37,816 nucleotides of DNA from NCBI GenBank assembly GCA_016875315.1, contig VGRQ01000004.1, positions 1-37,816 on the forward strand. Reading direction: 5' to 3'. Below are positions 28,168 to 30,617 of the stretch, piece by piece. The notes under the pieces are model-generated. The model had not been told where the DNA came from. It was given only the letters and a program-made list of their open reading frames with translations, and did not search any database. Each line of letters starts with the position of its first letter. Positions within the stretch are counted from its first letter, which is position 1. The position numbers and the translations under genes are program-made. The stretch is from Deltaproteobacteria bacterium. GTDB taxonomy: Bacteria; Myxococcota_A; UBA796; SXON01.

Positions 28168-29082
28168 CTACGGGTACTTCGTCTCGCCCAGGTCCGACAT
28201 GTCAACCACGTTGCCCGGGATGACACCCCACTCGCACTCGCCCACGCTGCCCTCGTCGCAGCCCCAGCAACTGATCTTGCCCGCAGTGGAGAGGGCGCAG
28301 AAGAAGCCGCCTCCGGCGCCAAGCGATCGGAAGGTGCCCGCGGGAGGCGAGAGCGAGGGCGTGTCCGATCCCCAACATTGCAGCGTGTCGTCTGACCGCA
28401 GCGCGCAGGCCGCGCCGCTCGCGACGGCGAGGGACTTGACACGCGCGAGCGCCGGGGGGAGGTTCACCGCTTCGTGGGCGCCCCAGCAACTTGGCTGCCC
28501 ACCGGGATCGAGCACGCAGGCAGCCCCGCCTCCTCCCGACACCATCACCCACGGCCCGGCGAGCGGCACAGTTGGCGGGTACGCGGCGTTGAATGCGCCG
28601 CTGCATGCCAGGAGGCCGCTGGGGTCGATTGTGCAGGTGTCGTTGGTGTACACCGCCAGCGTGGTAAACGGACCTTCGCCCGGCCGCGTCTCCCCGGCGT
28701 GGTCCGTCCCCCAGCACGTCACCTCGCCCTGCTCGTCCAGACCGCACCCGTGGTGCTCGCCGAGACCCACCTGCGTGAACTTCGTGCTGGGCGCGTCGGT
28801 CGCTCCGAACGCGGTGTTGCCCCAGCAGTACGGGACGCCCGCCGTCAGCGCGCAGGTGACGTAGGCGCTCAGCACCAGCGAGTCGAAGCCCTGCTCGGCA
28901 GGCAAGCCCAGCTGGGCGTAGTCCACGCCCGCGCGGAGGAACTGGCACTCGTAGCGGGGACCGTCGCGGGCGCAGGCGCCATAGCCGCCCACGTACAACG
29001 CGTCGTAGCCGCCGGAATCCGCCGGCTCCGCCGTCTCGCCCTCGCCATCGCAGGCGAGCAGGGGCACGAGGAGGAGGAACAC
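28168..29082 (-). CDS. RCC1-repeat-like lipoprotein
   Basis: MFLLLVPLLAC lipobox-like; repeats G.HHGCGLDEQGEVTCWG, GAACALRSDDTLQCWG, GFFCALSTAGKISCWG. Confidence 0.8.
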   Translation of the reverse strand: MFLLLVPLLACDGEGETAEPADSGGYDALYVGGYGACARDGPRYECQFLRAGVDYAQLGLPAEQGFDSLVLSAYVTCALTAGVPYCWGNTAFGATDAPSTKFTQVGLGEHHGCGLDEQGEVTCWGTDHAGETRPGEGPFTTLAVYTNDTCTIDPSGLLACSGAFNAAYPPTVPLAGPWVMVSGGGGAACVLDPGGQPSCWGAHEAVNLPPALARVKSLAVASGAACALRSDDTLQCWGSDTPSLSPPAGTFRSLGAGGGFFCALSTAGKISCWGCDEGSVGECEWGVIPGNVVDMSDLGETKYP

Positions 29083-29084
29083 GC

Positions 29085-30447
29085 CTACTCCGCCGGGATG
29101 CTGTAGGTCCCGGGCTGGCAGAGCTCCTCGCTGTCGAGTGTCAGCGCGTCGAGGCGGAGCGTCAAGGTGTCAGCCGATTGCGCGGTGATTGCGCCCCGCA
29201 GCTCGAGCGGCCCTCGCACCCACTCGAAGGTCTCCACGCCCTGCGCGGGCACCATGCTCGCCGACACGGCGAGCGCGGGCGCGCCGACAGGCTCGATCGT
29301 CAGGCGGTCGAGGCCGGGTTCCGGCCGCAGGACCACTTGCTGGATGGCATCGCACCCGAGCGCCGCGAGACTCACGCGATAGCCCGGCGGCGCGGGGAAC
29401 ACCGGCCCGCTCGCGTCGCAGGTCCAGTCCATCTCCACGCGGATGTAGGGAAAGAACGCCGGGTCGACCTCCTCGATCACGAAGGGCGACATGCCCTTCG
29501 GGCGACCGGAACCGAACCGCACCGTGCCGGTGATGGCCGTGGAGACGGCGCTGGCCTGGGCCACCGAGTCGGCGTGGGTGTAGGAGAAGGGCGACGTGCT
29601 GGTGATCACCCGCAACACGTTCGGCTCGGTCGACGCGCGGGTAACACGCGACACCCGCCCCCGGCGCGTGAGCACCCCGGAGCCCGAGAGCAACACCGGG
29701 GCCAGCGAGAAGGTGGCCTTGCCGTCATGGTCGCGATCCCGGCCGTAGGTGGGCACCAGCACGAACTCGCCCGTGCCCGGCGTGCACGTGGAGCTCTGCT
29801 CCACCGCGAGGCCGTCGGCGTTCTGCTTGTCGACGAGGTCGAGGCGCGTCGCCATGGGAACGAACTCGAAACAATCGTTCTCGGCGTTCTCGATGTGCGC
29901 GAGGTACTGCCCCGAGCAGGCCCCGGCGCTGCCGTAGCCGCAGTCGGTGCCCTGGTCGGTGTTGCACTGGTAGAGGCCGCACCACGACGTGCCCCCGCAC
30001 TCGGCGAAGCCGTTCTTCCAGGCCACGTTGCCCGAGGGCGCGTCGATCCAGCCCGACAGCGCGTGCTCCGTGACCGGGCAGGCACCGGTGCGCGACATGT
30101 ACGCGTCGACGCCGCTGCCGACCGGCACCTGAGCCTCGCCCGCCTCGTTGCGGAGGCCGAGCAACTCGCCGCCCACGACCTGGTTGCCCGAGAGGTCGGC
30201 GGAGCTGACGGTCGCGAACAGGCAGTTCCCGAAACTGCCCCCGTCGTCGTACATCGAGATCATCTCGCTGGCGTCCACGCTGTAGGCCACGCCGCCGGAA
30301 CCGCTCGGTGCGCAGGCGGTGTCGTGACAGTCTCGACCGCCCTTCGCGAAGTCGGGCGGGTCAACGGGGCAGCCCGCCCCCAGGAAGCCAGCGCCGAGCG
30401 AGAGTGCGGCTAGCGAGAGCGCGAGAACGCGAGAGCGCGAGAGCCAT
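29085..30447 (-). pseudogene. Lipoprotein gene, out of frame at its 5' end in this copy (candidate phase-OFF)
   Basis: RBS-ATG at 30447; intact signal peptide/lipobox LALSLAALSLGAGFLGAGC lies in a different frame; ORF otherwise open to 29085. Confidence 0.65.
30413..30444 (-). repeat. Four tandem 8-bp units (GCTCTCGC GCTCTCGC GTTCTCGC GCTCTCGC, gene strand) directly after an ATG
   Basis: Direct reading of 30413-30444; 8 nt per unit means slippage changes frame. Confidence 0.9.
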
Positions 30448-30617
30448 GATTACCTCCGGTATGGATGACCTATCGCAGCGCGTCGCATCGCGCAACCACG
30501 CCTCACGCCCAGCTGACCGATGCCACCCGCCCCGAGCCTGGCACCCTACCCGAGCTCACCCGGCCAGACCCGCGCGAGCTCATCCTCCACCCCCAACACT
30601 GCGGCCCGCCGCGCGAG

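Follow-up and report, generated by a model that had tools for sequence, protein, structure and literature searches.

In Neisseria, the opa genes carry CTCTT repeats in their leader region. These genes are established phase-variable genes (PMC1097732). The phase-variable HpuAB operon of Neisseria, the first gene of which encodes a surface-exposed lipoprotein, is controlled by slipped-strand mispairing, and NalP of the same genus possesses a poly-C tract (PMC5472700). The Campylobacter phasome comprises genes across the whole genome that contain poly-G/C tracts, and in its survey a cut-off of five units was used for longer repeats (PMC6321876). Repeat-driven phase variation has been studied mainly in host-associated pathogens, and no report of it in Myxococcota or in metagenomes was found in the literature searched, most of it outside subscription journals. 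The locus described here lies in a window of 37,816 nucleotides, the whole stretch of DNA that was analyzed, which makes up an entire contig. The assembly (G000), from an uncultured Myxococcota lineage, is fragmented, with 881 contigs that total 5.5 Mb, 92% completeness and 6% contamination. Judged from the sequence, an 8-bp array at the start of a lipoprotein gene (gene A) is likely to be the switch of a translational contingency locus, and the assembly is likely to have captured this locus in the OFF state.

Gene A is encoded on the minus strand, where the Shine-Dalgarno (SD) sequence GGAGG (30453..30457) is separated by a 5-nt spacer from an ATG start codon (30445..30447). The proposed switch follows directly and consists of four 8-bp units, GCTCTCGC GCTCTCGC GTTCTCGC GCTCTCGC (30413..30444), of which the third is imperfect, with one mismatch between GTTCTCGC and GCTCTCGC. 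The SD sequence, the ATG and the four units had been reported in the earlier note, and all of these elements can be read directly in the sequence. In the assembled sequence the ATG is out of frame with the lipoprotein, and its translation, MALALSRSRALASRTLARRWLPGGGLPR, terminates after the 28 codons that the earlier note had counted (abortive frame, 30361..30447, minus strand). The note had also placed a lipoprotein signal and an ORF of about 400 aa in another frame; the frame and the signal hold, and the size needs correction to about 453 aa, as the +1 frame, which begins with WLSRSRVLALSLAALSLGAGFLGAGC, is open for 453 codons to the TAG at 29087-29085 (gene A, 29085..30446, minus strand). 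As claimed, this frame has an upstream stop, a TAA just before the ATG, and offers no start before the signal peptide, the first ATG, GTG or TTG being found only after the lipobox. The ATG is in frame with two, five or eight units and out of frame with one, three, four, six or seven, which bears out the prediction that a gain of one unit or a loss of two restores the frame. A start inside the +1 frame in the four-unit state, at GTG 30290, would instead give a 401-aa cytoplasmic protein without a signal peptide, and this ORF does exist in the form in which a gene caller would annotate it. However, such a start would leave out a good signal peptide together with its lipobox, lacks an evident SD sequence and has no counterpart in any homologue, and we find this reading scarcely credible.

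The signal peptide of the +1 frame (30369..30438, minus strand), contained in SRVLALSLAALSLGAGFLGAGC, has an n-region, a hydrophobic core and a lipobox, identified by inspection, that ends in LGAG|C (...LSLGAGFLGAG|C; Cys codon 30371-30369). It overlaps the 8-bp repeat, within which the n-region Arg residues are encoded. Gene A belongs to a conserved unnamed family, for which 13 full-length members were aligned (alignment A1) over 592 columns; among the 26 invariant ones are the lipobox Cys and a motif near the C-terminus, C..GTYxxPAE. Searches of Pfam, NCBIfam and PDB returned no match to this family above chance, and, as far as tested, there was no homology to Neisseria Opa, HpuA or NalP. 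The AlphaFold2 model of the protein is poor (mean pLDDT 40), with only the C-terminal β-rich part reaching about 70-80. The family profile matched in 11 of 63 genomes of the order, and in a sample of 141 genomes of the phylum the six positives all belonged to the window's order. A DNA-pattern scan, for which the first alignment was too diverse, gave three named genomes of the order with a closer set of sequences, namely Myxococcota bacterium MAG.533, Deltaproteobacteria bacterium UBA2385 and Ki3-D2_bin-0965. The locus is single-copy in the G000 assembly, and a single-protein scan of genome contigs gave no match to a close orthologue in the genus. The N-termini were therefore compared across remote homologues, which are 22-28% identical to the window protein when the whole alignment is counted and 27-33% identical within the matched stretches.

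In the proposed mechanism, slipped-strand mispairing at replication could alter the number of units, possibly in either direction, and each change would shift the frame of the ATG because 8 is not divisible by 3. With four units, ribosomes would initiate at the good SD-ATG and terminate after 28 codons, and gene A would be OFF. The array is a non-triplet tandem repeat in the 5' coding region, the gain or loss of whose units moves the main frame in and out by simple arithmetic. On the other hand, four units with one mismatch fall below the five-unit cut-off of the Campylobacter survey (PMC6321876), and therefore the rate of switching may be low, or the array may have shrunk from a longer one; the survey thresholds (at least five long units; at least seven G/C) are empirical cut-offs rather than a definition. 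Chance does not account for the array: no near-perfect four-copy 8-mer was found in 1,195,430 bp from the window's genome and three relatives, none occurred in 200 simulated windows for each of Markov orders 1, 3 and 5, and when the signal region was recoded at random, with synonymous codons drawn according to the codon usage of the genome, such an array arose with p <= 1.5e-4.

This rarity also bears on the possibility that gene A is decaying as a pseudogene or has a fixed frameshift of one base, with the repeat as a by-product of Leu/Ala/Ser-rich signal-peptide codons. Signal peptides are of low complexity, and the deletion of a single base, like an assembly error, would yield an identical frame relation, which speaks against the switch. 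However, synonymous recoding rarely produces such an array, the other 453 codons are intact and can be aligned end to end with homologues, including their C-terminus, and independent homologues bear unrelated repeats at the same place. We regard decay or a fixed frameshift as unlikely.

The homologues were retrieved by protein similarity and not by their repeats, and therefore the DNA at their starts provides an unbiased test of repeat placement. Poly-C tracts that exceed the survey cut-off of seven G/C were found as ATGACCCG-C12 in L003 (G047) and ATGCATA-C8 in L008 (G007), both out of frame with the signal peptide, and as ATGAACCTCG-C9 in L005 (G028), which is in frame. A C14 tract follows an SD-TTG in L002 (G008), which was counted as out of frame with its signal peptide. 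The choice of start codon in L002 is a matter of judgement: the reading is out of frame if it begins at the TTG that has normal SD spacing, and would be in frame if it began at another TTG, located one base past the SD. L004 (G015) possesses TCCTC x4 in frame, and L018 (G028) has TCTCAGG x2 (ATG-TCTCAGG-TCTCAGG) out of frame with the signal peptide. These repeats are located between the start codon and the signal peptide, and their classes are unrelated to the 8-mer of the window and to each other; it is therefore the position of the repeat, and not its sequence, that is conserved. In 48-nt start windows, a repeat was present in 6 of 12 homologues and in none of 612 other windows from the same genes (p about 1e-11), the scan being restricted to perfect repeats and thus leaving the imperfect array of the window gene uncounted. 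Five of the seven repeat-bearing starts are out of frame, compared with none of the six repeat-free ones (Fisher p = 0.016, window gene included; 4/6 versus 0/6, p = 0.03, without it), and five of seven is close to the two thirds expected from random repeat length. The repeat-free starts, in 6 of the 13 family members, have a normal reading frame. Four further members (L007, L011, L015 and L017) were left unclassified for want of a convincing start or because of a broken frame; among these, L007 (G018 C58:177-) is full-length with a signal peptide, has neither a repeat nor an ATG, GTG or TTG before the signal peptide, and perhaps uses ATT or has a disrupted start. The earlier note had named orthologues devoid of the repeat and with a different start as a refutation. 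In the remote homologues, on which this was checked, the window's repeat is not present, but about half carry another repeat, and most of these are likewise out of frame. The contingency-locus reading of that note gains support from these different, slippage-prone repeats at the same site.

An assembly or sequencing error, with a single in-frame length as the true state of the array, could likewise be suspected because the genome is fragmented into 881 contigs, some of which end in C38-C40 beside poly-G, probably a sequencing artefact. However, normal reads are long enough to span an array of 32 bp whose third unit differs from the others, homopolymer errors cannot cause the out-of-frame state of the 7-mer homologue L018, and errors would not put repeats at start codons; an error of this kind appears quite improbable. 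Whereas a single locus could be the result of a pseudogene or an assembly error, the recurrent placement in homologues could not. It is also conceivable that the repeat is a recoding signal, through which ribosomal frameshifting or transcriptional slippage yields some lipoprotein from one DNA state, and the poly-C tracts of the homologues could permit slippage by RNA polymerase. In contrast, neither ribosome nor polymerase slips on arrays of 8-mers, 7-mers or 5-mers, the members have no single motif in common, and some of them are in frame (L004 and L005), which makes recoding a very improbable explanation.

The proposed switch may extend beyond gene A. Gene B (28168..29082, minus strand), a lipoprotein-like gene with RCC1 repeats (RCC1_2, E=1.2e-11), starts at GTG 29082, 2 nt after the gene A stop, the spacing that the earlier note had given. 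A second lipoprotein-like gene is located downstream on the same strand at 11 of 11 loci, with its likely start about -4 to +6 nt from the gene A stop. RCC1 repeats are present in the partner gene of the window and of 8 of 10 other loci, and the partner genes L166 and L155 had no Pfam match. Start-at-stop junctions of such spacing normally reflect translational coupling. Gene B is therefore probably coupled to gene A, and an out-of-frame gene A should silence it. This conserved, tightly spaced operon strengthens the earlier note's proposal that the RCC1-like gene may be affected too; gene B would probably be lost together with gene A, whether by polarity or because translational coupling fails. 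A single tract could in this way impose stochastic ON/OFF expression on a two-lipoprotein module, presumably at the cell surface.

Start-site repeats were also surveyed across the order. An SD-ATG followed by C9 or longer within 24 nt occurred at 87 sites in the 63 genomes, compared with 23 for the reversed pattern (p = 3e-10), and the same count in 92 other genomes of the phylum gave 34 versus 18. The sites of the order often lie ahead of signal peptides and out of frame. Among the sites read individually (69 of the order's), those in which C10 or longer precedes a hydrophobic N-terminus were OFF in 12 cases and ON in 6, by frame calls that are approximate because they are based on a simple composition score; cytosolic enzymes with C8-C9 were mostly in frame, the tracts being ordinary proline codons. 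In the window's genome, at least four more secreted or lipoprotein genes (L159, L160, L169 and L170) are out of frame with C8-C11 at or near the start. A C tract is not diagnostic by itself, because many C10+ tracts of G000 lie away from starts and some are probable contig-end artefacts. We lean slightly towards the view that this uncultured Myxococcota order has a large phase-variable secretome, in which repeats placed between the start codon and the signal peptide switch the lipoprotein/RCC1 operon, exoproteins with a MopE motif and further secreted families, the repeat class (poly-C, 5-mer, 7-mer or 8-mer) having been replaced in evolution while its position was kept.

A second candidate phase-variable family comprises L159, L320-L323 (G008) and L326-L328 (G005), which are secreted proteins with C8-C11 after the ATG, most of them out of frame. 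Pfam detects the MopE-type metal-binding motif in L159 (G000 C14:20230), just under the curated cut-off, and in L320; of those that resemble them by N-terminus, L321, L322 and L326-L328 are OFF and L323 is ON. L169 (G000 C2:13137-13147, minus strand) has C11 about 15 codons past the lipobox, where the signal frame ends just after the tract and a 1243-codon frame is offset by one. Similar leaders occur in L160 (G000 C125:2661), which has Pfam matches to SpvB-N and FG-GAP, and in L268 (end of G000 C202), with C9 and C17, respectively, and the contig of L268 breaks just past the tract. L133 (G047) and L341 (G037) are look-alike secreted proteins with a DPAPGDR motif and C14 and C15 after the ATG, both OFF. 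The similar proteins L315, L317 and L318 (G002; about 210 aa) carry C11, C13 and C10 after the ATG, all in frame, and possibly represent a cytosolic phase-variable family; L317 has no Pfam match.

Other repeats of G000 were placed elsewhere. At L259 (G000 C22:13851), C10 lies just before GGAGG-AGT-ATG and could vary the spacing of promoter or ribosome-binding site, not the frame. A perfect 7-mer array, AGGCTGG x6.4 (L183, G000 C17:2487-2531), was rejected as a start-site repeat, as it lies near the end of a frame and not at a start. The C38-C40 tracts beside poly-G at L275 and L277 (ends of G000 C386 and C585) are probably sequencing artefacts, and the notion that every long C tract marks the start of a gene was discarded, since the census of C10+ tracts in G000 contains many intergenic or contig-end cases.

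If the position-conserved switch operates in uncultured Myxococcota, it would suggest that surface switching is favoured outside hosts by grazing, phage or encounters between prey and predator. Proteins of this kind are overlooked or shortened by gene callers, and the loci described here provide a concrete gene set that can be examined in existing metagenome reads. The mechanism itself is already known, whereas the protein family, the operon and the lineage appear to be new. As in Neisseria opa, a non-triplet repeat is located within the signal-peptide coding region and the number of units would set the frame of a surface protein; Opa proteins, however, are outer-membrane barrels, in contrast to the lipoprotein, 8-bp unit and uncultured Myxococcota host of the window. 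HpuAB resembles the present operon in that the first gene encodes a lipoprotein, but its partner is a TonB-dependent receptor, whereas here gene A is paired with another lipoprotein, at most loci one with RCC1 repeats. Neisseria NalP and AusI (MspA) are autotransporters and not lipoproteins, and the window copy uses an 8-mer. The Campylobacter phasome differs in being host-associated.
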